Positions 8,087-44,404 of a DNA stretch of 64,000 bases are shown in pieces. Under the pieces are notes generated by a model. The model did not search any database. It saw only the letters and a program-made list of their open reading frames with translations, and was not told the origin of the DNA. The number at the start of each line of letters is the position of its first letter. Position 1 is the stretch's first letter. The translations under genes were made by a program, and so were the position numbers. This DNA comes from Micavibrio aeruginosavorus EPB (GTDB lineage: Bacteria; Pseudomonadota; Alphaproteobacteria; Micavibrionales; Micavibrionaceae), in the NCBI RefSeq assembly GCF_000348745.1, contig NC_020812.1, positions 248,001-312,000 of the forward strand, given 5' to 3'.

Positions 8087-10096
<2,010 letters not shown>

Positions 10097-10116
10097 AAAA
10101 AAGGGCTATTGGATCG

Positions 10117-10147
10117 CCAGCTTGATCATCCCCCACATGGGGGCTGG
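10117..10147 (+). terminator. Possible weak terminator after aacS
   Basis: CCCCC-ACAT-GGGGG (10130-10143) inside an outer CCAGC...GCTGG pairing, followed only by TTTGCATTT. The stem is good but the T-tract is poor. Confidence 0.4.
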
Positions 10148-10252
10148 TTTGCATTTGCGACATTGCGGCAGAAATTATCCAATTTTTTCAATGCCATGGC
10201 TTTTTACTTATAAAAATCAAACGTTCCACTTTATAAAATCAAAAGAATCCCT

Positions 10253-10282
10253 TTGACTCATTCTTAGGGTTTTCCCTATAAA
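10253..10282 (+). promoter_or_regulatory. Candidate sigma-70 promoter for the aminotransferase gene
   Basis: TTGACT (10253-10258) and TATAAA (10277-10282) are 18 bases apart. The spacer holds the mirror TAGGG-TTTT-CCCTA, which overlaps the -10. The surrounding 100 bases are AT-rich, unlike the coding regions. The next gene starts 115 bases downstream. The rest of the 300-base gap from 10097 holds nothing else that I can name. Confidence 0.5.
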
Positions 10283-10397
10283 ACAAATATCAGGCCACGG
10301 CGGACGTTTCAAAGATCAGCCGGGCCGATAACGATGAACCGGGCAAATGCCGGTTTAGAGTTGGTGTGAAAAAGAAAAACGAAGGGTGTAAGGCGCT

Positions 10398-11633
10398 ATG
10401 GTGGCTCTGCCTCCGCGCGACGGTAATGGACAATTGCTTTCCGGTCTGACGAACGGTGAAGCATCGCACGCTGTGCCGTTTATGCGCCCGATCCTGAATG
10501 ACATTCATCACAATCCCGGTGCCGAAATCGTCCGCTATGCGCGCGGTCGCGACAACATGATCGCGCTCAGCATGGGCGAGGGCGATGCACCGACGCCGGA
10601 TTTTATTATCCGCAGCCTGCAGGATGCGTTGGGTCGTGGTGAAACATTTTATTCCCCACCGCTGGGCCGCCCGGAATTGCGGCAGGCTTTGTCATCCTAC
10701 TATCTGCGCCATTATGGCCACGACATTCCGATGGAGCGTTTTTTCGTGACGCCGTCGGGCACGTCGGCGGTGCACCTAGCCCTGTCCGCCGTGCTGGAAA
10801 AAGATGACGAAGTCATCGCGGTCGTGCCGATGTGGAAAAACCTGCTCGGCGCAATGCGCCTACAACAGGCGAATATTAAACCGGTTTATCTGGATTTATC
10901 GGCGGATGGCCAGGACTGGGTTCTGGATGTGGACCGCATCTTTGCCACCGTGACACCGAACACGCGCGCCATCGTCATCAATTCCCCGAACAATCCGACC
11001 GGGTGGATCATGACCATCGATCAGATGCGCGCCGTGATGGATTTTGCACGCGCCCGCGGCATCTGGGTGATTTCGGATGAGGTCTATAGCCGCATGGTCT
11101 ACGGCGTATCGCGCGCGCCGAGTTTTCTGGATGTCGCGCATCCTGATGACCGTCTGCTGGTGATCAACAGCTTCTCCAAAAACTGGGCCATGACGGGCTG
11201 GCGATTGGGGTGGTTGATCGGGCCGAAAGAGGCCGAGCAGAAGATTTACGATCTGGTCCTGTACGATTCCCTGTGCCCGAACACGTTTACGCAATTCGGC
11301 GCGATTGCTGCATTGGAGCAGGGCGAGGATTTCATTGCAGAGCAAAAAATCCGTTACGAACACAATATGCAGATCGTGCAAAATTGTTTCGACGATATTG
11401 GTGGCATCATCGCCCCGCGCACGCGCATGGGTTTTTACAGCTTTTTCAAGGTGGATGGCCACGATGATTGCATGGCGCTGGCCCGCAATCTGGTCGATCA
11501 GGCCGGGCTGGTCCTGGTGCCGGGTTGCGCCTTCGGTGAAAATGTGAAAGGTTTCATGCGGATGTGCTTTGCTGTTTCTGAACCGCGCCTGCGTTTGGCG
11601 CTGGACCGGTTTGCAACGGCCATAAAGCGCTAA
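10398..11633 (+). CDS. Class I/II pyridoxal-phosphate aminotransferase
   Basis: A 411-residue fold-type I aminotransferase. Motifs in order: GEGDAPTPDFI near the N-terminus, FYSPPLGRPELRQAL, the cofactor-phosphate loop TPSGTSAVHLAL, INSPNNPTGW (pyridoxal-contacting Asn), ISDEVYSRMVY, and the Schiff-base lysine in NSFSKNWAMTGWRLGW. This places it in the AspC/AAT-I group. The amino donor is not determined; aromatic or aspartate substrates are possible, and an aromatic aminotransferase would fill the tyrosine to 4-hydroxyphenylpyruvate step missing from the operon near 52 kb. AAGG six bases before the ATG supports the start. Confidence 0.88.
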   Translation: MVALPPRDGNGQLLSGLTNGEASHAVPFMRPILNDIHHNPGAEIVRYARGRDNMIALSMGEGDAPTPDFIIRSLQDALGRGETFYSPPLGRPELRQALSSYYLRHYGHDIPMERFFVTPSGTSAVHLALSAVLEKDDEVIAVVPMWKNLLGAMRLQQANIKPVYLDLSADGQDWVLDVDRIFATVTPNTRAIVINSPNNPTGWIMTIDQMRAVMDFARARGIWVISDEVYSRMVYGVSRAPSFLDVAHPDDRLLVINSFSKNWAMTGWRLGWLIGPKEAEQKIYDLVLYDSLCPNTFTQFGAIAALEQGEDFIAEQKIRYEHNMQIVQNCFDDIGGIIAPRTRMGFYSFFKVDGHDDCMALARNLVDQAGLVLVPGCAFGENVKGFMRMCFAVSEPRLRLALDRFATAIKR

Positions 11634-11666
11634 GGATCACCCTTAGACGACAAAGGTTCCCCCCGT

Positions 11667-12236
11667 ATGATGCGCGGCTTCTTTGGTGTTGGTGTGCAAA
11701 GCATCAGCAAAGAGCAAAATCTTGGCAATCTGGTCCGGACCACACATGCTTTCGGCGGATCGTTTTTCTTCACCATCAAGCCGGATATCGACCTGGATCT
11801 GGTGCGTGTGTCGGATACGTCCGATGCGTTCGATCATCTGCCGCTGTATAATTTTGATACGGTCGATGCTTTGCGCCTGCCCACCGGGTGCCAATTGGTG
11901 GGGGTTGAGCTGACGGATGAATCTGTCCCCCTGCCGTCCTTTCGCCATCCGACGCGGGCGGCCTATGTGCTGGGGCCGGAGATGGGCAGCCTGTCGCCCG
12001 ACCTGTTGGCCAAATGCGATCATGTGATCCGCATTCCCATGAAATTCTGCGTCAATGTCGGTGTGGCCGGGGCCATCGTCATGTATGACCGTCTGGTGTC
12101 GATGGGCCGGTTTGCGGATCGTCCCGTGGCGGCGGGTGGGCCGATTGATGCCCGTTTGGACAATATGCCGACCCCCGTCTGGCAACCGCGCCGGGTTGTT
12201 CGCCATCCGCTGAAGGGGCGGAAAGTCACGGAATAA
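11667..12236 (+). CDS. SPOUT-family RNA methyltransferase (TrmH/SpoU-like)
   Basis: A compact 189-residue protein with only the SPOUT catalytic domain. Motif 1 is NLGNLVRTTHAFG; motif 2 is YVLGPEMGSLSPDLL; motif 3 is IRIPMKFCVNVGVAGAIVMYDRL, where the usual SLNVS is CVNVG. Enzymes of this group 2'-O-methylate tRNA or rRNA using S-adenosylmethionine in a trefoil knot. Which RNA it modifies is not clear. An alternative ATG lies three bases downstream of the chosen start. Confidence 0.85.
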   Translation: MMRGFFGVGVQSISKEQNLGNLVRTTHAFGGSFFFTIKPDIDLDLVRVSDTSDAFDHLPLYNFDTVDALRLPTGCQLVGVELTDESVPLPSFRHPTRAAYVLGPEMGSLSPDLLAKCDHVIRIPMKFCVNVGVAGAIVMYDRLVSMGRFADRPVAAGGPIDARLDNMPTPVWQPRRVVRHPLKGRKVTE

Positions 12237-12348
12237 ACGTCTGACATGCCAGGGTGTTTTTTACGGTTGCCAAGGCCGTCTGATTCTCTAAACTGGATGT
12301 CCTGATCTTCCAATGAATGCCCAATGCAGGCAAAGGGTGCTTTCAATC

Positions 12349-12874
12349 ATGCCGATGCTCCGATCTTCTTCGTTTTTCCTTTCGCTGGCCGCGGTTGCGG
12401 TCATCCTGTTTGCCGCTCCGGCGGCGCAGGCGCAAAACCCGGTCGAGCTGGGTGTCCACGGAAACTGGACGGCCTATCGCATTGACGAAACCGGGGGCAA
12501 GGTTTGCTATATGGCGGCCCAGCCGGACAAGGCCGAGGGCAAGTATAACCGCCGTGGCGAAATCTTCGCCCTGATCACGCACCGCCCGGCCGAGGGCAGC
12601 CGTAACGTTTTCAGCTATATCGCTGGCTATGAATACAAGCCGGGCAGTGATGTGACCGTGACGATTGATGGCCAGTCTTTCACCCTGTTCTCGCAGGATG
12701 ACACGGCCTGGGCCCCGGATGCCGCGACGGATGAGAAGATTGCCACGGCCATCCGCAAGGGATCCAAAATGGTGGTCAAGGGGCGGTCCAGCTTTTTTTT
12801 CCACCACCGATACGTTCATCCTGAAGGGATCGGGCGCGGCGCATGATGCGATCAATGAGGCCTGTGCGAAATAA
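12349..12874 (+). pseudogene. Invasion-associated locus B (IalB)-family protein with a frameshift at a T8 run
   Basis: The reading frame from ATG 12349 has a Sec signal peptide ending AAQAQ, then GNWTAYRI, CYMAAQPDKAEG and RRGEIFALITHRP, as in secreted IalB-like proteins of alphaproteobacteria. At the run of eight T at 12793-12800 the frame shifts into SFFFHHRYVHPEG and stops at 12846. Removing one T restores the expected family ending STTDTFILKGSGAAHDAINE with a stop at 12872-12874. It is therefore either a real inactivating frameshift, a sequencing error in a homopolymer, or a site of polymerase slippage. The function of IalB homologues outside pathogens is not settled. Confidence 0.75.
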
Positions 12875-12898
12875 GAATCCTCTTGAAATAAAATTGGC

Positions 12899-12927
12899 TA
12901 AAAAGGCGCGGTTTTCCGCGCTTTTTT
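12899..12927 (+). terminator. Rho-independent terminator after the IalB-like gene
   Basis: GCGCGG-TTTT-CCGCGC stem followed by TTTTTT. It starts 25 bases after the frame-restored stop. Confidence 0.85.
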
Positions 12928-13311
12928 ATGGCCTGTTGCGGTGCAAGCCATTGAAATTAGACAGCATTTTATCCAATCCCATCATTTTGTTAACGCGTTG
13001 TGGATAAGATAGGAAAATAAGGCAATTTTGGGGCCGTTTTGGGGCGGCCTGACACGGAAAAGCCCTTTGGATAAAAGGGTTAACGTCATTATAAAGCGGT
13101 TGTTCGCCCCCCGGCGCTATGCTAACTCTGAGGGGCGAAATTAATGAAGTGTTAACGATTTGGGGTCATACGTATCCGTCGCGTTTTGGGGCATTTGGCT
13201 CCTGATCTGGCGACCGATCCCAACCAACCAGGAGGATAGAACGCGTTCCCGCTGTGTCGGATTTTGCGTCGGTGACGGCGCGTGACACAAAGGGGATCGG
13301 ATCTTGACCCA
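12928..13311 (+). other. Long leader region before the M23 peptidase gene
   Basis: About 380 bases with no convincing gene. It holds AT-rich stretches around 12950-13020 and several GTTAAC sites, then GC-rich sequence. A promoter for the M23 gene is expected here, but I see no -35/-10 pair good enough to name. A GTG at 13282 could extend the peptidase by 10 residues. Confidence 0.4.
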
Positions 13312-14859
13312 ATGCCACAGCTTAAAAAACGCTCGAATAAAATCCTGTCCATCATCCCGCCCGTTGCGGTGCAAGATGTCTTGCACCGTTTGAACCGTTA
13401 TTTGCCGTTGCGTCACCGCCATGTGTTGACCCGCCATAATACGGTGCGCCTGCGCTATGTCGCGGCTCCGGTCTGTGCCGTGGTGGTGATGGGGCTGGTT
13501 TTCACGGCCGTGGGCAATCCGGCGCGCGGTGTGTCCTCTGAACTGGCGGCCCAGGCCTATGCCACCCTCGAACCGGCCGCCGGCGGGGATCGTCAGGACG
13601 GTGAAGAAGGTCTGGTGACCCAATTGGCCGCGACGCAGAAACGTCTGCAACGCTACACCGCCGCGTCCTATACGATGGACCCGGGCCAGACCGTTGCCAT
13701 CAACCGTGCCGCGACTCTCGCGCCGAAAGAAAAACAAGTTAAAATCGCCCCCGGCGACACCCTGACGGGGGCGTTGTTGCAGGCTGGTTTGTCCGATAAA
13801 GACGCCTATGGCGTGGTGCAGGCCATGAAGCAGCATGTGAACCCGCGCTCGATCCGTCCGGGTCAGGTGTTGCAGGTTCGCTTTGATCAGGGCGAAGGCG
13901 ATGTGAAACCGCTGGCGCAGGTCAGCATGGCGATGGATGCGCTGAAAACCATCACCGTCGCCCGCGCACCGACCGAAGAGGCCGGGTTCAAGGTTGATGT
14001 CAGCGAGAAGAAAGTCGTCAAAAAGCTTTACACCCAGGCGGCGGATATTTCCGTGTCTGTTGTTGGTGCGGCGGCCAAGGCGGGCATCCCGTCGGCGGTT
14101 GTGAACGAAGCGATCCGGATTTATTCCTGGGACGTCGACTTCCAGCGTGACATTCGTCAGGGCGACAAAATCGAAATCACCTACGAAGCATACGAAACCG
14201 AAGACGGCCAGCGCGTGAAAACGGGCGATGTCCTGTACACCCAATTGTCCGTCAGCGGCATCGACATTCCGCTCTATCGTTATGAAACGACGGAAGGGCG
14301 CGTGGATTACTTCCAGCCGAATGGCCGGTCCATCCGTAAGACGCTGATGAAGACCCCGATTGACGGGGCGCGTATTTCCTCCGGCTTCGGCGTGCGTCGC
14401 CACCCGGTTCTGGGATACACCAAAATGCACAAGGGCATGGATTTCGCCGCGCCGACCGGCACGCCGATCTATGCCGCTGGCGACGGTGTAATTGAAAAGG
14501 CTGGAAAATTCTCCAGCTTCGGGAACTATGTCCGCATTCGCCACAATGCCCAGCTGAAAACCGCCTATGCCCACATGAGCCGTTTTGGCAAGGGCATCAC
14601 CCCGGGCACCCGCGTCCGTCAGGGGCAGGTGATTGGCTATGTTGGGACCACCGGTCGCTCCACAGGCCCGCACTTGCACTATGAAGTCCTGGTCAATGGC
14701 GTGCAGAAAAACCCGCGCAGTCTGGATCTGCCCACGGGGGAAACGCTGGACGGCGAAGAAATGCGCCTGTTCAAAGCCCACGTGAAGCAGATGGATCGCG
14801 ATATCTCCAACGGCCGCGCCCTGCGCTACGCCCGCAACACGGCCTCAACGGCGCAGTAA
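13312..14859 (+). CDS. M23-family (LytM-type) peptidoglycan endopeptidase, membrane anchored
   Basis: About 515 residues. A single N-terminal membrane helix (YVAAPVCAVVVMGLVFTAV region, residues about 50-65) follows a basic cytoplasmic start. A LysM/OapA-like module lies at about 140-200 (IAPGDTLTGALLQAGLSDKD ... SIRPGQVLQVRF). The C-terminal M23 domain has the zinc motifs HKGMDFAAPTGTPIYAAGDG and HLHYEV, plus YAHMSRFGKGI. Such enzymes cleave peptide cross-links in the cell wall during growth or division. The ATG at 13312 is preferred. The gene ends at a strong terminator shared with the convergent Shedu-like gene. Confidence 0.9.
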   Translation: MPQLKKRSNKILSIIPPVAVQDVLHRLNRYLPLRHRHVLTRHNTVRLRYVAAPVCAVVVMGLVFTAVGNPARGVSSELAAQAYATLEPAAGGDRQDGEEGLVTQLAATQKRLQRYTAASYTMDPGQTVAINRAATLAPKEKQVKIAPGDTLTGALLQAGLSDKDAYGVVQAMKQHVNPRSIRPGQVLQVRFDQGEGDVKPLAQVSMAMDALKTITVARAPTEEAGFKVDVSEKKVVKKLYTQAADISVSVVGAAAKAGIPSAVVNEAIRIYSWDVDFQRDIRQGDKIEITYEAYETEDGQRVKTGDVLYTQLSVSGIDIPLYRYETTEGRVDYFQPNGRSIRKTLMKTPIDGARISSGFGVRRHPVLGYTKMHKGMDFAAPTGTPIYAAGDGVIEKAGKFSSFGNYVRIRHNAQLKTAYAHMSRFGKGITPGTRVRQGQVIGYVGTTGRSTGPHLHYEVLVNGVQKNPRSLDLPTGETLDGEEMRLFKAHVKQMDRDISNGRALRYARNTASTAQ

Positions 14860-14874
14860 GTGGATATGAATTTT

Positions 14875-14907
14875 AAAAAAGCCCCGGGTGAATCCCGGGG
14901 CTTTTTT
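14875..14907. terminator. Bidirectional terminator
   Basis: GCCCCGGG-TGAAT-CCCGGGGC flanked by AAAAAA on the left and TTTTTT on the right. It serves the M23 gene and probably also the leftward Shedu-like gene, whose stop is 48 bases away. Confidence 0.9.
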
Positions 14908-14954
14908 GTTTTCTTTAGTGGTAAAAGCGGTCCATTTTCGAGGGTAAATCTTTT

Positions 14955-16169
14955 TCATGGGGAGTTTTTTAGTTTTTCAATAATATTGTTTAAACGACAC
15001 AAAAGATCGTCGTAGGTAATGATATCCATTATATTAGAGTATTTTCTTCGAATTAATTCCAGATCAAACGTTTGCTTTGCGGTCAAACCTTTGGTGCGCC
15101 CTAAAATTATTAACGCTTTGGGATTGGTGATTTTTAATTCTATGCCGTGAGGAAGAATGTTTGCGTGCTTTTTTGTTATCTCTCGTTCCCCATCAATTCC
15201 CCATTTGTTCAAATGAAAAATGTATTTTTCGGCTTGCATGATTGCGCCGGCTAATTCCTTTTTAGGAAGGAAATTATCTCGATACGCTTTGTTAGATATT
15301 AGGCAGTTATCAAATGGCTGCTTGATTTCTATAATGTCTATGTTGCCATTGACATCTACCAGTGCAATATCCGCATAGCGATTTGTTGTTTTGTCTTTTT
15401 TTGAATAAAAATCTTTTAGATGTAAATTTCGCAGAACTGCAACATATTTAGGAAATATCAGCAGAATAAAGTGAAGCATTAAGTCACGCCAATTATCTTC
15501 AGAGTAGGTGCTTTTCCTACCTAACTCTTCTTCTATTCTATCTCTGATGTATTCGTATTTTTGAATTTCATATTCATAAATATTACTGATAAGGGACCTT
15601 TCTAACGAATATGACAGCGGCTTCTTCTGGAGGTGTTTTTTCAACTTCTCTTGGGCATCGGTCATTGTTTCGAAATAATCTTCTAGAATCATTGAAATCC
15701 TAGATCTGGCATAATGTGTAACCTCTGTTGAGTTTGGAAACTTCAACAAGAGGGTTTCAAATGCTTCTATTGGAATAGCACCCTGTCTATTTCCGCCAAT
15801 AACAATTGGTTCAGAGATAAGCTCATCAATTCTTGAGAAGATGGATATATCGCGATGCGCGATAAAGATCTTGTGATCTATTCGCATATCTGTTGCCAAA
15901 AACAAGTCGTGTTTCAGGCCTAAAATTCGCGCCTCGATCTTGTAGTAGTCACCTTCCATCTTTCCTAAAGCGAAAGATATATTGTTATAATTTTCGTGCT
16001 CGCTACCATCGCTGGGTTTATTTTCTGCAAGAAGATCCTGATTCTTAAAGGTAAAAATCTTTCTGATCGTAACTTTGCTCTCATTGGTTATTTTTTCATA
16101 AACCCAAGAGCTTTCATCGCCGCTATATTCTAATAATAACGAGTTCTTTTTTTTTCTTATTTTAATCAA
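14955..16169 (-). CDS. Shedu-type anti-phage nuclease (SduA, DUF4263 domain)
   Basis: A 404-residue protein in a clearly AT-rich stretch, unlike both neighbours. The C-terminal third matches the Shedu/DUF4263 nuclease pattern: SEDNWRDLMLHFILLIFPKY (223-242), then Asp267 in RYADIALVD, the E-x-K pair Glu281/Lys283 in IIEIKQP, a YRDNFLPKKELAGAI segment, and Gln312/Tyr316 in IMQAEKY. In known Shedu systems this single protein degrades invading DNA. The N-terminal 200 residues are not recognised and may sense the phage, as N-termini vary in the family. The start is TTG, backed by AGGAG at 16177-16181 seven bases upstream. Composition and isolation suggest horizontal transfer. Confidence 0.78.
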   Translation of the reverse strand: MIKIRKKKNSLLLEYSGDESSWVYEKITNESKVTIRKIFTFKNQDLLAENKPSDGSEHENYNNISFALGKMEGDYYKIEARILGLKHDLFLATDMRIDHKIFIAHRDISIFSRIDELISEPIVIGGNRQGAIPIEAFETLLLKFPNSTEVTHYARSRISMILEDYFETMTDAQEKLKKHLQKKPLSYSLERSLISNIYEYEIQKYEYIRDRIEEELGRKSTYSEDNWRDLMLHFILLIFPKYVAVLRNLHLKDFYSKKDKTTNRYADIALVDVNGNIDIIEIKQPFDNCLISNKAYRDNFLPKKELAGAIMQAEKYIFHLNKWGIDGEREITKKHANILPHGIELKITNPKALIILGRTKGLTAKQTFDLELIRRKYSNIMDIITYDDLLCRLNNIIEKLKNSP

Positions 16170-16216
16170 TCCGAATCTCCTAAACTTAGACTATGCCCAC
16201 TTTTAGTGTATCTTTC

Positions 16217-17149
16217 TTAATACCCGCGCTCAAAATCCACCAATCCCGGCGGATCTTCGCCACGGTCCAGCATCATGATGGCCTGGCGGATGGCGGCCAC
16301 GCCTGTCTCGGGAATGGTGATGGCGGCGATGTGCGGGGTGACCAGAATCTGTTTGTGGGACCAGAAGGGATGGTCGGGGGGCAGGGGTTCGGTGCGGAAC
16401 ACATCCAGTGCCGCCATGCGCAGTTGCCCGCTGTCCAGCGCCGGGATCAAATCATCCTCGACCAGATGTTTGCCGCGTGCGACGTTGATCAGGCTGGCCC
16501 CCCGCGGCAATTGCGCGAACAGATCACGGCTCAGGATGTTTTCCGTGTCGGGCGTCAGTGGCAGCAGGCAGACCAGAATGTCGCATCCATTCAGGAAATG
16601 GGGCAATTGGTCGTGCCCGGCATAAACGCCCACCCCTTCAATCGTGTGGTGTGTCCGGGCCCAGCCGCGAACGCGGAAACCCAGTGCGGCCAGCGCGCGG
16701 GCGCACGCCCCGCCCATTTCACCCAGCCCCATAATGCCGACCACCCGGTCCTTGGCCAATGTCGGCATGATCCCGCCCCATGGGATCGTGCTGCCGCCCG
16801 CCTGCACCAGATCATGGTCGCGGTGAAAACGCAGGACGTAGCTGGTCACATAATCAACCATGCCGGATGACAGGCCCGGTTCGATCATACGGATCAGCTT
16901 GGCGGGGTGGGGGAATTCGGGGTGGCCGATATATTGGTTCACACCCGCCGATAACGATAAAACCGCACGCAGATTTGGATAGGCGGTGCGGTCACCCGGG
17001 AACATTTTCCACGCCACCATGTGCGTGATGTCGGATGGATCGCCAACATCCGGCCAGATGCGCATATCCAGATCGGCCAGGCCGGCGCGCAATGCGGGAA
17101 CCCAATGCGGGTTATCAACAGAATAAACAGGGCGAAAGAGAATCGGCAT
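16217..17149 (-). CDS. ghrA: Glyoxylate/hydroxypyruvate reductase A-like 2-hydroxyacid dehydrogenase
   Basis: About 310 residues from the ATG at 17149. The D-2-hydroxyacid dehydrogenase fold is shown by the NAD(P) loop VGIMGLGEMGGACARAL, the INVARGKHLVEDDL arginine motif, ALDVFRTEPLPPDHPFW (Glu) and VTPHIAA (His). N-terminal features such as WKMFPG, VLSLSAGVNQY and the short catalytic half resemble GhrA, which reduces glyoxylate and hydroxypyruvate with NADPH. It ends 48 bases before the Shedu-like gene, so read-through from it could express that gene. An upstream ATG at 17185 adds residues with no family match. Confidence 0.87.
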   Translation of the reverse strand: MPILFRPVYSVDNPHWVPALRAGLADLDMRIWPDVGDPSDITHMVAWKMFPGDRTAYPNLRAVLSLSAGVNQYIGHPEFPHPAKLIRMIEPGLSSGMVDYVTSYVLRFHRDHDLVQAGGSTIPWGGIMPTLAKDRVVGIMGLGEMGGACARALAALGFRVRGWARTHHTIEGVGVYAGHDQLPHFLNGCDILVCLLPLTPDTENILSRDLFAQLPRGASLINVARGKHLVEDDLIPALDSGQLRMAALDVFRTEPLPPDHPFWSHKQILVTPHIAAITIPETGVAAIRQAIMMLDRGEDPPGLVDFERGY

Positions 17150-17231
17150 CTCGTCATTTCCTTTTTGATGGTGAATGATGCGCAAAGTGATTCTTTAAAT
17201 ACTTTATGCCCATCCGGATCGAACACAAACC

Positions 17232-17735
17232 ATGAATATTGCCCGTAAATCCATCCGTCTGACCTTTTTGCTGGGGTTGGCTTTGATCCTGCCCGGCCAT
17301 GTATCCCATTCCGGGGCGCAGGGCGTGCCGAACAACCTGCCGCGCACGGCCATGTCGGGCCAAACATTGATGGGCTTCTGTGCCAGCAAGCATGATGTTG
17401 ATGCCGGTTTTTGCAGTGGCTATATCGCCGCCGTGGCGGAAGCCATGCTGGTTCAGCCGGCGTACGCCCAAAGCGCCTGTGACCATGCCATGGTCAAGCC
17501 GCAACAATTGGTTGATACGGTGAAGATCGAAGTGGACGCCGATCCATCCCTGACCCGTCTGCCCGCCGGGGTGATGGTGGCGCAGGTGATGGCGATGTCC
17601 TATCCCTGCTATAACAATTATGCCCCGGCCGCCGGAGATGTCGTGACCAGTGGCGTCGTTGGCTATCAGGTTGAACCGCTGCCGGCGCCGCCTGTTTCAT
17701 CTGGGGCTGTTTCATCCTTCGGCTTGCGTCCGTAA
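17232..17735 (+). CDS. Rap1a/Tai-like secreted protein
   Basis: A 167-residue exported protein: basic start, hydrophobic signal helix (FLLGLALILPGHVSHSGAQG), then a small domain with paired cysteines. The pattern LMGFCASK ... FCSGYIAAVAEAM ... SACDHAMVKPQQLVDTVKIEVDADP fits the Rap1a/Tai domain (bacterial immunity-like proteins first seen beside type VI effectors). In alphaproteobacteria such orphans are common and their role is unknown. No type VI effector lies nearby. Its 3' end overlaps the convergent SURF1 gene by about 70 bases. Confidence 0.65.
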   Translation: MNIARKSIRLTFLLGLALILPGHVSHSGAQGVPNNLPRTAMSGQTLMGFCASKHDVDAGFCSGYIAAVAEAMLVQPAYAQSACDHAMVKPQQLVDTVKIEVDADPSLTRLPAGVMVAQVMAMSYPCYNNYAPAAGDVVTSGVVGYQVEPLPAPPVSSGAVSSFGLRP

Positions 17736-18439
17736 ACGATAAACCGCAATCCATACATAATGATCAGAATGCCCGCCATCGTGAACCAGAAGATGGCGTA
17801 GGACAGGTGATTGTTGTTGGGTGTTTGCCACGCCTCAACCGGAAGGGGCCAACCCACATCGTCGCGTTTGGTTTCTTCATAAAACGCCAGCGGAACAACA
17901 TTCTCCAGATTGTGGGAGGCGGCCAGCGCGGCGGGGTCCAACGTGAACCACATATTCTGGTCCGGCAGGTTTTGGGGTGTGAACGAATTTGTCTGCGTCG
18001 GGTGGCGCAGCGTACCGATGATTGTCACCGTCGGGTCCGGGCGCTGGATAAACGTGTCGGGATCATCACTGACCCAACCGCGCAAAACCGGAACGATGGT
18101 CTGGCCATCGGATAACAGGAACGGCGTCACCAGATGCGCACCCGTTTTTTGCCCCATCGGTCGGGGTTTCAGGAAGATTTCATGATCATGCAAATATCGC
18201 CCGGTCAATGTGCCACGGATCAGCAGACCCTCTTCGTCGACCAAGGGCGCAATGGTACCCGCGTCCAACGCCAGCGGTTGGGCCGTGCGCGCCGTTTCAA
18301 TGCGGGCCAGCAGGTCGTTTTTCCATTGCAGACGTTGTAACTGCCACGACCCCAGGCCACACAGCACGATCACGCCCGCAAGGGTCAGGATCGTGGCCCA
18401 GAAGGGAAGGCGAAATGGGGCAGGGCGTAGCGAGGACAT
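17666..18439 (-). CDS. SURF1-family cytochrome c oxidase assembly protein
   Basis: About 257 residues from the ATG at 18439. It has the SURF1 layout: an N-terminal membrane helix (FWATILTLAGVIVLCGLGSW followed by QLQRLQWK), a large periplasmic domain with GQTIVPVLRGWVSDD, and a C-terminal membrane helix (YAIFWFTMAGILIIMYGLRF). SURF1 helps insert heme a into cytochrome oxidase subunit I. It lies just after the DUF983 gene (7 bases), the order found in many alphaproteobacterial cox clusters. Its 3' end overlaps the convergent Rap1a-like gene. Confidence 0.93.
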   Translation of the reverse strand: MSSLRPAPFRLPFWATILTLAGVIVLCGLGSWQLQRLQWKNDLLARIETARTAQPLALDAGTIAPLVDEEGLLIRGTLTGRYLHDHEIFLKPRPMGQKTGAHLVTPFLLSDGQTIVPVLRGWVSDDPDTFIQRPDPTVTIIGTLRHPTQTNSFTPQNLPDQNMWFTLDPAALAASHNLENVVPLAFYEETKRDDVGWPLPVEAWQTPNNNHLSYAIFWFTMAGILIIMYGLRFIVYGRKPKDETAPDETGGAGSGST

Positions 18440-18446
18440 AGCGTGA

Positions 18447-18815
18447 TTATTCTTCCCAGTCGCTGGATCGGTGTTTGTATTGCAGGGCGATGACATAGGC
18501 CTTGATCGGGCGCAGCAGGCCCACGGTGATGGCCAGTGCCACGATGGTCCATACAATCACATGCAGCCACAATGGCGGAGCGAACCAGACCTCGACCAGC
18601 AAGGCCAGCGGGACGAGCAGGAAGCTGAGAATAAAAATCAGGAAAACGGCGGGACCGTCGGCGCTGTCATTTTTCGCCAGATCGAAACCACAATGGTCGC
18701 ATGTATCGGCCAGATTCAGCGTCAGGCCCGGTTTGTACAGATTGCCAATGCCGCATTTCGGGCATTTCTGACGCAGGGCCAGCTTCATCAATTCTGTATC
18801 GGGGTTCATGTCCAT
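18447..18815 (-). CDS. DUF983 zinc-ribbon membrane protein
   Basis: A 122-residue protein with two CxxC pairs (CPKCGIGNLYK and CDHCGFD) forming a zinc ribbon, then two membrane helices (VFLIFILSFLLVPLALLVEV and LHVIVWTIVALAITVGLL). This is the DUF983 family, routinely found between coxC and surf1 in alphaproteobacteria and presumed to help oxidase assembly; its exact role is unknown. AAGGAG precedes the ATG. A strong terminator separates it from coxC, so it may have its own promoter. Confidence 0.88.
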   Translation of the reverse strand: MDMNPDTELMKLALRQKCPKCGIGNLYKPGLTLNLADTCDHCGFDLAKNDSADGPAVFLIFILSFLLVPLALLVEVWFAPPLWLHVIVWTIVALAITVGLLRPIKAYVIALQYKHRSSDWEE

Positions 18816-18834
18816 TGTGTGTACTCCTTCAAGG

Positions 18835-18866
18835 AAAAAACCCTCCCTGTGGTAGGGAGGGTTTTG
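18835..18866 (-). terminator. Terminator between coxC and the DUF983 gene
   Basis: CCCTCCC-TGTGGTA-GGGAGGG with an A6 run at 18835-18840, read as a T-tract on the minus strand. It follows coxC by 15 bases and would reduce expression of the two assembly genes downstream. Confidence 0.85.
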
Positions 18867-18880
18867 ATTCTTTCAATTCT

Positions 18881-19756
18881 TTACGGGGCCGGTACGGCGT
18901 TGACGCCGACGGTGTTGCCCCACCAGTAAATGGCGACGAACAGGAACAGCCAGACCACGTCAACGAAGTGCCAGTACCAGGCGGCGGCTTCGAAACCGAA
19001 ATGGTGTTTCTGGTCAAAGTGACCTTTTTTCGCGCGCAGCCAGCACACGAACAGGAACACGGTACCAACGAAAACGTGGAACCCGTGGAAGCCTGTCGCC
19101 ATGTAGAAAGCCGAAGCGTAAACGGTGTCTTTGAAGCCGAAGGCGGCGTGGTGATATTCGTAAACCTGGAAGCACAAGAAGATCACACCCAGCAGAACCG
19201 TCAGGCCCAGAGCCTTAACCGCTTGATCGTTGTGGCCTTCCAGAATGGCATGGTGCGCCCATGTCACCGTGCAGCCCGACAGCAGCAGGATCATGGTCAT
19301 CAGCAACGGCAGGCCGAACGGCATGATCACTTCGATCGTGGCCGGCGGCCAGACGAAACCAATCGCCTCGGTCGGGAACAAAGCGGCGGCGAAGAAGGCC
19401 CAGAAAAACGCAACGAAGAACATGACTTCGGATGCGATGAACAAAGACATGCCATAGCGCAAACCGATTTCAGCAATCGGGGTGTGGGCCTTTTCCTTCA
19501 CGGATTCGAAAATAATATCTTTCCACCAGAAGAACATAACGGCGACAACGGACAGCAGGCCCAAACCAACGCCGACCAGACCCGGAGAAATGCCGAAGAT
19601 TTTGGTTTCGTGCATGAACAGCACCACCATGGCGGCGAGCAGGCCCGCCGCGAAAGACCCGGCCATCGGCCAGATGCTGGGGCGAACCATGTGGTACGGG
19701 TGCGGTTTGCCGGTGGTGCCGAAATGGGTTCCGGTTGCGTGATGGTCGTGGGCCAT
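18881..19756 (-). CDS. coxC: Cytochrome c oxidase subunit III
   Basis: A 291-residue membrane protein with seven helices. Signature segments are HPYHMVRPSIWPMAGSFAAG, RYGMSLFIASEVMFFVAFFW (conserved Glu), ATGFHGFHVFVGTVFL and YWHFVDVVWLFLFVAIYWWG at the C-terminus. Subunit III binds lipid and stabilises proton uptake in aa3-type oxidases. It follows ctaG by 83 bases on the same strand, as in typical alphaproteobacterial clusters. Confidence 0.97.
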   Translation of the reverse strand: MAHDHHATGTHFGTTGKPHPYHMVRPSIWPMAGSFAAGLLAAMVVLFMHETKIFGISPGLVGVGLGLLSVVAVMFFWWKDIIFESVKEKAHTPIAEIGLRYGMSLFIASEVMFFVAFFWAFFAAALFPTEAIGFVWPPATIEVIMPFGLPLLMTMILLLSGCTVTWAHHAILEGHNDQAVKALGLTVLLGVIFLCFQVYEYHHAAFGFKDTVYASAFYMATGFHGFHVFVGTVFLFVCWLRAKKGHFDQKHHFGFEAAAWYWHFVDVVWLFLFVAIYWWGNTVGVNAVPAP

Positions 19757-19839
19757 GAGTAACAGTCCTTACTGAAAAATCGTAGCGAATCGGTCAACGT
19801 GAACCCCGGCTGGGCCGGGGGCGATATACGGCTCTGTTT

Positions 19840-20505
19840 TTACTGCTTTTCTGGTTCCAAGGCAACGGTGCCAACCAGTGAATCATCCGCCGCCGGGCCT
19901 GTTTTTACGACAACCCCGTTATCGGCCTGATTAAAGGCCTCCCACGCGGCGTCCAGCTCGGGCGTGTCGGCCTTGAAATAGGTGTAGGACAGGGTGATGA
20001 CCTTCACATCGTCCAGATTGGGGTCCTTGGCCATCTCGGGCGACAGGAAAAAGACGACGGGCAGGGTGGTTTCCTGCCCCGGTTGCATGGTCTGCTCGGC
20101 AAAGCAGAAACATTGTGTCTTATGAAAATATTTTCCAGCCTTGGCCGGGGTGACATTATAAAGCGCCGTGCCCGTGACCGGAACGCGGTCCTTGTTCTCC
20201 AGTCGGAAGCTGGCCAAGGCGGGCTGGCCGATTTTGACTTTCACTTCACGCTGGTCCGGTTTGAAGGTCCAGAGCAGATTACGGCCCGTGTCGGTATTAA
20301 AGTGAATGGTGACCGTGCGGTCGACGATTTCCGACGGGTCCGGGGCCTCGGCCGACATTTGCGTGGTGCCGCCAAACCCGGTGACGCGGCAGAACAGATT
20401 ATACAGCGGAACCGCGGCGAAGGACGCACCGATCATGACGCCCACAACGACCAGAACGCTGATCAGGATACGGCGGTTTTTGGTTTGCAAATCGGATGCG
20501 GGCAT
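19840..20505 (-). CDS. ctaG: Cytochrome c oxidase assembly protein CtaG (Cox11)
   Basis: A 221-residue protein with one N-terminal membrane helix (ILISVLVVVGVMIGASFAAV) and a periplasmic immunoglobulin-like domain. VPLYNLFCRVTGFGGTTQ follows the anchor, and the copper-binding CFCF motif appears in KTQCFCFAEQTMQPGQE. Cox11 delivers copper to the CuB site of subunit I. It sits between the coxF-like micro-gene and coxC. Confidence 0.96.
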   Translation of the reverse strand: MPASDLQTKNRRILISVLVVVGVMIGASFAAVPLYNLFCRVTGFGGTTQMSAEAPDPSEIVDRTVTIHFNTDTGRNLLWTFKPDQREVKVKIGQPALASFRLENKDRVPVTGTALYNVTPAKAGKYFHKTQCFCFAEQTMQPGQETTLPVVFFLSPEMAKDPNLDDVKVITLSYTYFKADTPELDAAWEAFNQADNGVVVKTGPAADDSLVGTVALEPEKQ

Positions 20506-20550
20506 AAGGGTACTCCATGCACAGGGCCATGGGATTGGAATGGCGGGCTG

Positions 20551-20676
20551 TTACTGCATCCCGGCTTTGATTTTGATCATGGTGATAATCCAGATCACGG
20601 CAACCCAACCCATGATCGCGGCCAGAATGGTCAGGTTTTTGGTCATTTTCTTTTTGTGCATGTCGGACAGGGGCAT
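20551..20676 (-). CDS. CoxF-like small membrane protein
   Basis: A 41-residue ORF between ctaB and ctaG, beginning MPLSDMHKKKMTKNLT and carrying a single helix LAAIMGWVAVIWIITMIKI. In many alphaproteobacteria a tiny protein of this kind (often annotated CoxF) occupies exactly this place and is thought to assist oxidase assembly. GGAG lies eight bases before the ATG. The spacing to both neighbours is tight (24 and 45 bases), consistent with one transcript. Function is by position only. Confidence 0.8.
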   Translation of the reverse strand: MPLSDMHKKKMTKNLTILAAIMGWVAVIWIITMIKIKAGMQ

Positions 20677-20700
20677 ATGGATCTCCAGTTTTACGTGCGA

Positions 20701-21618
20701 TTAAACGGCGTCAATCATCAGTGCCAGGAACAGCGCGAACAGATAGAAGACGGAATACCCAAACATCAGCCGTGCGCTTTTCAGGCTATCGTCCATCAAA
20801 ACGCGGATCGATGTGAAGACAAAGAAGCCCGACAGGATCAGCGCGGCAATGCCATAGCCATATCCGGCAAATCCCATCAATGTCGGCAACAACGACAATG
20901 GTAACAGGATCAGCGTGTAAACCAGCATCTGGATCTTGGTTTTGCGTTCACCCGCGACAACGGTCATCATCGGGATGTTGGCGCGCTTGTAATCCTCGTT
21001 CGCGAACAGGGACAGGGCCCAGAAATGCGGCGGCGTCCAGAAGAAGATCAGCGCGAACAGGACAATGGATTCAATGGTAATCGTCCCCGTCACGGCGGCC
21101 CAGCCAATCATCGGCGGGAACGCCCCGGCGGCACCGCCAATCACAATGTTCTGCGGCGTGCGGCGTTTCAGCCACATGGTGTAAATGATGCTGTAGAACA
21201 GGTTGGCAAAGGCCAGCAGGCCCGCGGCGGTCCAGTTCACGGCCACGCCCATCGTCATCACGGACAGAGCGGACAGGACGAGGGCGAAGCTGACCGCTTC
21301 ATCCGGGTTCATGCGGCCGCGTGGCAGGGGGCGGCCCGCGGTGCGTTTCATCACCGTATCAATGTCGCGTTCGTACCACATATTCACGGCCCCGGCCGCG
21401 CCCGCGCCAATGGCCAGGCACGCAACGGCCACGGCAATCATAAACGGATGCATATCGGAAAAACCGGGGGCCACCCACATCCCGGCAAAGCCGGAGAAGA
21501 CGACCAGCGACATGACGCGGGGTTTTAACAACGCCCAAAAATCCCGCACCCGCGATTGGTCCTTCGCGGGGGTGGAATCAGAAATTTGCGGATCTGCGTC
21601 AGTGTGTACGTCACTCAT
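20701..21618 (-). CDS. ctaB: Protoheme IX farnesyltransferase
   Basis: A 305-residue UbiA-type prenyltransferase with about nine membrane helices. The first Asp-rich motif is NMWYERDIDTVMKRTAGRPLP and the second lies in FWTPPHFWALSLFANEDYKR. It converts heme B to heme O with farnesyl diphosphate, the first step toward heme A for the oxidase. LLKPRVMSLVVFSGFAGMW near the N-terminus is typical. It follows the M16 gene rather than coxA, so the usual coxA-ctaB link is broken here. Confidence 0.96.
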   Translation of the reverse strand: MSDVHTDADPQISDSTPAKDQSRVRDFWALLKPRVMSLVVFSGFAGMWVAPGFSDMHPFMIAVAVACLAIGAGAAGAVNMWYERDIDTVMKRTAGRPLPRGRMNPDEAVSFALVLSALSVMTMGVAVNWTAAGLLAFANLFYSIIYTMWLKRRTPQNIVIGGAAGAFPPMIGWAAVTGTITIESIVLFALIFFWTPPHFWALSLFANEDYKRANIPMMTVVAGERKTKIQMLVYTLILLPLSLLPTLMGFAGYGYGIAALILSGFFVFTSIRVLMDDSLKSARLMFGYSVFYLFALFLALMIDAV

Positions 21619-43904: not shown

Positions 43905-44378
43905 TTGGGGCTAAAAATCAATAGAGAGAGATTTTTTCCAGGGGAGATTTATATTTTTCTTTTCTGGTATTTTCTTTGGATATTGAAAGAGGCTTTTTTC
44001 TTTTGGAGCTCTTATGCGCATCATCCCGTTTATAATCCGCTCTTCTTGCTTTTGTACCTGTCATTTTTGAGCGCGATAATTAAGGCTACGCCGGTTGTTC
44101 TTAGTTACACTGTCTGTGTGAGATTCATTCGTGTGCCTACTATATGGGTTGCGGTACTTTTTGCGATTTTTTGCGCAGATTTTTATTTATCGATGTCTCG
44201 TGCGGAGAGCATAAATCTAACCTCGCGGCGAGGAGGTTTTGTTTTGTATGATGGTGGAGAGATAACCAGTTTTGGAATTTTGATATTAATGCTCAATCCA
44301 ACGATTTTTATATGCTTCTATGCGTTTTATAAAGCAGTCAGAGGCTGGAAGTTGAAAAAAGAAAACCCCGCTCTTTAG
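43905..44378 (+). CDS. Hypothetical membrane protein, AT-rich gene
   Basis: A 157-residue protein with about four hydrophobic segments: IYIFLFWYFLWILKEAFFFW, LFLLLYLSFLSAIIKATPVV, WVAVLFAIFCADFYLSM and FGILILMLNPTIFICFYAFY. It is not recognised. The start is TTG, nine bases after AAGGA. The gene is visibly AT-rich against GC-rich neighbours, suggesting recent acquisition. Its stop lies inside the loop region of a terminator hairpin shared with the convergent glutamate dehydrogenase gene. Confidence 0.6.
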   Translation: MGLKINRERFFPGEIYIFLFWYFLWILKEAFFFWSSYAHHPVYNPLFLLLYLSFLSAIIKATPVVLSYTVCVRFIRVPTIWVAVLFAIFCADFYLSMSRAESINLTSRRGGFVLYDGGEITSFGILILMLNPTIFICFYAFYKAVRGWKLKKENPAL

Positions 44379-44388
44379 CGGGGTTTTC
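44362..44388. terminator. Bidirectional terminator overlapping a stop codon
   Basis: CCCCGCT-CTTT-AGCGGGG flanked by AAAA and TTTT. The TAG stop of the rightward gene sits in the right arm and loop. It also terminates the leftward glutamate dehydrogenase gene. Confidence 0.85.
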
Positions 44389-44404
44389 TTTCTCTGTTTC
44401 TGTT

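Follow-up and report, generated by a model that had tools for sequence, protein, structure and literature searches.

Shedu is a characterised enzyme that shields bacteria from viruses through the cutting of DNA. The E. coli protein EcSduA (structures 8ps4, 8ps5 and 8ps6), called type I Shedu in a review (PMC12904381), is described there as a homotetramer that binds DNA ends and nicks at a fixed distance, its N-terminal domain being a clamp that binds the ends. VcSduA of V. cholerae (type I-D) is presented as a DUF4263 nuclease of the PD-(D/E)xK type (PMC12137116). A link between Shedu and BREX has already been reported (PMC12839542), and therefore the BREX link described below is no discovery of this study.

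The gene analysed here lies in a 64,000-nucleotide stretch of Micavibrio aeruginosavorus EPB DNA (the window), at 14955–16169 on the minus strand, and encodes a protein of 404 residues (TTG start, stop codon included in the coordinates). Its product resembles EcSduA in its two domains, their order, its length and its catalytic residues, with 43% identity over 399 aligned residues to an E. coli copy (L047), but the N-terminus is only 32% identical and the window protein differs by having Arg228 and Gln284. The E. coli gene is situated in a P2-like prophage, between tail genes in the one genome opened, whereas the window gene stands between housekeeping genes. A DUF4263 PD-(D/E)xK nuclease is also common to the window protein and VcSduA, but VcSduA has an N-terminal GHKL ATPase for which the window protein gave no Pfam match. 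The likeness to Bacillus cereus Shedu (8ti8/8ti9) concerns the fold of the nuclease part (model residues 188–402), with the N-terminal domain outside the match. Shedu proteins embedded in BREX loci are closer, with 50–52% identity overall and 44–49% in the N-terminus for the three that are not cut by a contig end, but no match to pglX, pglZ or brxL was found in the window and no PglZ in its genome. We consider it very probable that the gene was acquired horizontally and provides, by itself, a Shedu defence like that of EcSduA, consisting of an end-loading clamp and a nicking nuclease.

Family identity and domain structure

The original prediction assigned the gene to the Shedu (SduA) type and recognised a D-ExK-Q pattern (Asp267, Glu281, Lys283 and Gln312) in its C-terminal part, and both statements are confirmed: the protein is a Shedu (SduA) nuclease by profile, by solved-structure sequence and by fold. 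The DUF4263 profile search proposed at the time gave a match to PF14082 (SduA_C) with an E-value of 4e-33 (115.3 bits against a cut-off of 27), covering residues 222–390 (15000–15506, minus strand). All 17 PADLOC matches of the protein were SduA models (PDLC00388, 9.6e-162, residues 1–402), while NCBIfam gave no match at E-values up to 1. Two sequences of solved structures were matched, both of them E. coli Shedu (8ps4 and 8ps6), the match to 8ps4 extending over residues 8–401 (1.9e-107).

The four residues of the pattern are present and each is identical in all 36 aligned relatives; their codons on the minus strand, with coordinates computed from the reading frame, are at 15369–15371 (Asp267), 15321–15329 (Glu281-Ile282-Lys283, the ExK motif) and 15234–15236 (Gln312). 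Other conserved positions have changed in the window protein: Arg228 stands where 36 of 36 relatives have Gln; Gln284, the neighbour of the catalytic Lys, replaces a Lys that 33 of the 36 share; and further departures are found at Ala266, Ala307, Leu345 and Arg374, positions at which 33 or 34 of the 36 relatives agree.

A structure model of the protein, built on 24 sequences, reached a pLDDT of 81.1 and a pTM of 0.52, with residues 154–169 below a pLDDT of 50. Foldseek ranked 8ps5 (1.1e-44), 8ps4 and 8ps6 (6.1e-16) first, followed by B. cereus Shedu (8ti9_C, 4.5e-07). The expected PD-(D/E)xK fold was found in the nuclease core, since VIA-align 2 superposed model residues 188–402 on 8ti9_B with a Z-score of 15.0 (rmsd 3.5 over 177 residues). 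Over the whole length the model matched 8ps4 with a Z-score of 30.2 and an rmsd of 25.4 over 367 residues, the two domains superposing apart from each other.

The N-terminal part, about residues 1–184 (15618–16169, minus strand; boundary approximate), is a domain of the DNA-end clamp type. Residues 8–184 match the sequence of the crystallised N-terminal domain of EcSduA (8ps6, 1.4e-30), and model residues 1–188 superpose on this domain with a Z-score of 21.0 (rmsd 4.6 over 174 residues). The N-terminus is therefore not new, and the earlier suggestion that it might be a new type of sensor is not supported, the sequence match, the Foldseek match and the superposition all speaking against it; the fold prediction called for at that point led to the known E. 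coli domain instead.

Composition, neighbourhood and insertion site

The reading frame is single and unbroken over its 404 codons. Upstream of the TTG start the strand reads TTTAGGAGATTCGGATTG, with an AGGAG, likely the ribosome-binding site, seven bases ahead of the start (16177–16181, minus strand). A simple promoter scan yielded no promoter-like site on the strand of the gene; it gave two on the opposite strand, where shuffled sequences give 4.2, and is thus uninformative. The G+C content of the gene is 0.355 (35.5%), compared with 0.563 (56%) for the whole window; the rest of the window, cut into 1205 overlapping segments of the gene's length, has a mean of 0.568 (sd 0.027) and a minimum of 0.481, so that the gene lies about 8 standard deviations below it. 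Likewise, GC3 is 0.373 in the gene against 0.68–0.77 in six neighbours. What had been said of the start codon and its AGGAG, and of an AT-rich gene unlike its neighbours, thus agrees with these data.

The ten neighbouring proteins tested (8087 to 21618, with likely genes at 18447–18815 and 19840–20505 left out) are housekeeping or ordinary by Pfam. They comprise an AMP-binding enzyme, an aminotransferase, a SpoU methylase, an IalB-like protein and an M23 peptidase on one side, and a 2-hydroxyacid dehydrogenase, a Rap1a-like protein, SURF1, COX3 and UbiA on the other. None of the ten is an integrase by Pfam and none gave a PADLOC match at E ≤ 0.001, which for these proteins bears out the earlier remark that no integrase or other defence gene is nearby.

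As had been recommended, the locus was compared in relatives: the gene is present in the window's genome and absent from the corresponding site of the sister genome G002. The alignment with G002 runs to window position 14912 (91.5% identity) and resumes at 16215 (89.4%), so that 1302 bases of the window (14913–16214; borders from local alignment, approximate) stand against 72 bases in G002. The insert starts just past a hairpin resembling a terminator (14874–14908, plus strand), which follows the M23 peptidase gene and has a counterpart at the same place in the sister genome; the terminator scan found this one against 1.7 in shuffled sequences, which proves nothing by itself. Between the matches to the M23 peptidase and the dehydrogenase there are 1363 bases in the window's genome, but only 129 in G002, 109 in G001 and 171 in G003. 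In G004, an assembly of about 120 contigs that is 86% complete, the search gave no dehydrogenase with more than 34% identity, so that this genome does not inform on the site.

Gain in the lineage of the window is a simpler reading than loss, because of the foreign composition and the three empty junctions, and the gene appears to have arrived recently and alone. A comparison of 130 and 150 border bases for the ends of a mobile element gave no common direct or inverted word of at least 9 bases, and one direct match of 8 bases. With a possible insertion hotspot in mind, the junction was compared more widely: the M23 peptidase is present in 54 of 58 genomes, and within flanks of 1.5 kb the dehydrogenase is near it in just five of the 30 readable loci (the window's own, G002, G001, G003 and G036); the junction is therefore mostly a matter of the genus.

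The 72 bases of G002 (L030:1424–1495) contain a palindrome built on CCACGAATGGACACGAATG. With up to two mismatches, and counting some overlapping copies, this motif occurs 7 times in the window's genome (G000), 14 times in G002, twice in G003 and not in G001 or G004, while the motif read backward, as a control, was absent from all five genomes. Half of the G002 palindrome is also found elsewhere in G000 and G002. A second AT-rich open reading frame of the window (43905–44378, plus strand; 157 residues, 39% G+C) is hydrophobic as judged by eye, and is ended by a perfect inverted repeat of 15 bases (44358–44391).

Possible kinship with BREX-embedded Shedu proteins

The loci of relatives were searched for BREX genes with the plasmid pFW12EY proteins for pglX, pglZ, brxL and the YhcG-type nuclease as queries, in 46 loci (27 + 19) of which two places are counted twice and several viral contigs are probably near-copies. 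Shedu was found among BREX genes in four of these (L003, L017, L046 and L048), and many others are cut by contig ends, where BREX genes may have escaped the search; a weak pglX match at L007 (70 residues, 1.8e-06) was not counted. On the Methylomonas koyamae plasmid pFW12EY (L046) Shedu lies between a pair formed by pglX and a YhcG-type nuclease and the pglZ gene. In L003 it is surrounded by a pglX in two pieces, pglZ and brxL, and in L048 by pglX, pglZ and brxL; L017 contains pglZ and brxL, and its contig starts inside the Shedu gene.

Two details of these loci may be added. The YhcG-type PDDEXK nuclease (DUF1016) of pFW12EY is located directly ahead of Shedu inside the BREX operon (L046:4803–7119). 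In the Marinamargulisbacteria MAG (L003:6174–10938) Shedu sits in the middle of the split PglX with a 4-base overlap with each half, and the halves match residues 1–590 and 597–1152 of the pFW12EY protein.

By identity, no relatives are closer to the window protein than the four BREX-embedded ones (50–54% overall), and in the N-terminus they share 44–53% with it, compared with 24–40% for the other 32 relatives, the value of 53% (L017) referring to 68 aligned residues. This raises the possibility, which we regard as doubtful, that the gene once belonged to a BREX operon as an accessory Shedu and has since left it, so that it now acts alone with a clamp tuned to the cue of BREX-embedded Shedu. 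The absence of PglZ from the genome argues against it, as does L065, a relative with no BREX match that is nearly as close (48% overall, 40% in the N-terminus).

The tree and the conservation count were based on 37 rows; L017 was retained despite lacking its first 120 residues, and L023 (frame broken in two), the C-terminal pieces L026 and L027, L063 and L066 (same places as L065 and L064), and the viral contigs L050–L054 and L062 (match figures the same or nearly the same as those of L049 and L061) were left out. The best tree places the window protein with the BREX set and L057, which is not from a BREX locus, at a low support of 39/32. A firm group of 23 rows (100/100) includes EcSduA and no BREX row, and the window protein is outside it. 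Neither a grouping of the window protein with the four BREX rows alone (p-AU 0.309) nor its placement beside the 23-row non-BREX group (p-AU 0.315) is rejected.

A related idea, to which we give still less weight, is that of an orphan Shedu with a clamp from the BREX-embedded lineage, working alone in a predatory bacterium with a specificity for ends or partners unlike that of EcSduA; such a specificity is proposed because of the low N-terminal identity to EcSduA and the residues Arg228 and Gln284. In the papers searched, none was found that pairs Shedu with predatory bacteria. The protein may be of mild use as a natural variant in asking whether the clamp of the E. coli prophage Shedu and clamps of the BREX-embedded kind recognise identical DNA ends.

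Proposed role and distribution of relatives

We return to the preferred reading, a Shedu defence akin to EcSduA. By analogy with EcSduA, the protein would form a tetramer, sense ends, nick DNA and protect against phage: the N-terminal domain would act as a clamp loading onto free ends of linear DNA, after which the C-terminal PD-(D/E)xK domain with its residues Asp267, Glu281, Lys283 and Gln312 would nick close to that end; linear phage DNA would thus come under attack on entry or during replication. The occurrence of relatives in an E. coli P2-like prophage, on plasmids and in viral contigs counts for this defence, whereas the six departures from conserved residues and the lack of a promoter-like site count against it. 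The gene is an ordinary addition to a known family, a Shedu probably gained alone, and apparently recently, by a small genome of a probably predatory genus. We know of no phage of the genus Micavibrio.

The departures at positions 228, with a Gln invariant in the others, and 284 could also mean a decaying or inactive acquisition with a whole frame and a damaged function, and the finding of the protein in one of the five genomes of the genus is in line with this. Such decay appears improbable, as the 404-codon frame is intact and the protein retains its four catalytic residues along with most of the remaining conserved positions. A nuclease digesting the DNA of prey, suggested by the bacterial predator for which the genus is known (PMC3189940), is most improbable, given a protein start (MIKIRKKKNSLLLEY) unlike a signal peptide as judged by eye, the occurrence of the Shedu family in many organisms that have no known predatory habit, in a prophage and on plasmids, and the finding of no such protein in G002.

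In its own genome the protein has a single copy, and a protein search at E ≤ 0.001 in 95 genomes of the genus, family and order (66 of them with completeness of 90% or more and contamination of 5% or less) found only this one. The PF14082 profile matched in three of the 95, the other two much more weakly (G086, 49.5 bits; G009, 46.4 bits), and the gene of G009 appears to encode a Shedu of another kind. At E ≤ 1e-30, relatives were present in 2 of 385 genomes of the class and 2 of 398 of the phylum, the window's own being included in each count. More widely, 26 loci were found in named genomes (38–56% identity over the best segment), 15 in viral contigs, 53 records in plasmids (with 80% or more of the protein covered in 5) and one record in phages, P2-EC31, DNA of which occurs in 52 of 5426 E. 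coli genomes.

Two of the relatives differ in length or annotation. In Thetidibacter halocola (L013:7986–10157) the Shedu frame is prolonged to 723 residues, and the extra C-terminal part of about 300 residues has no Pfam match at E ≤ 0.001. In P2-EC31 (L045:321–1540) the database entry for the Shedu gene is a shorter 'putative lysogenic conversion protein' (321–1409), flanked by inverted repeats that are annotated with lengths of about 100 bases, while the protein match, in two pieces, extends to 1540.
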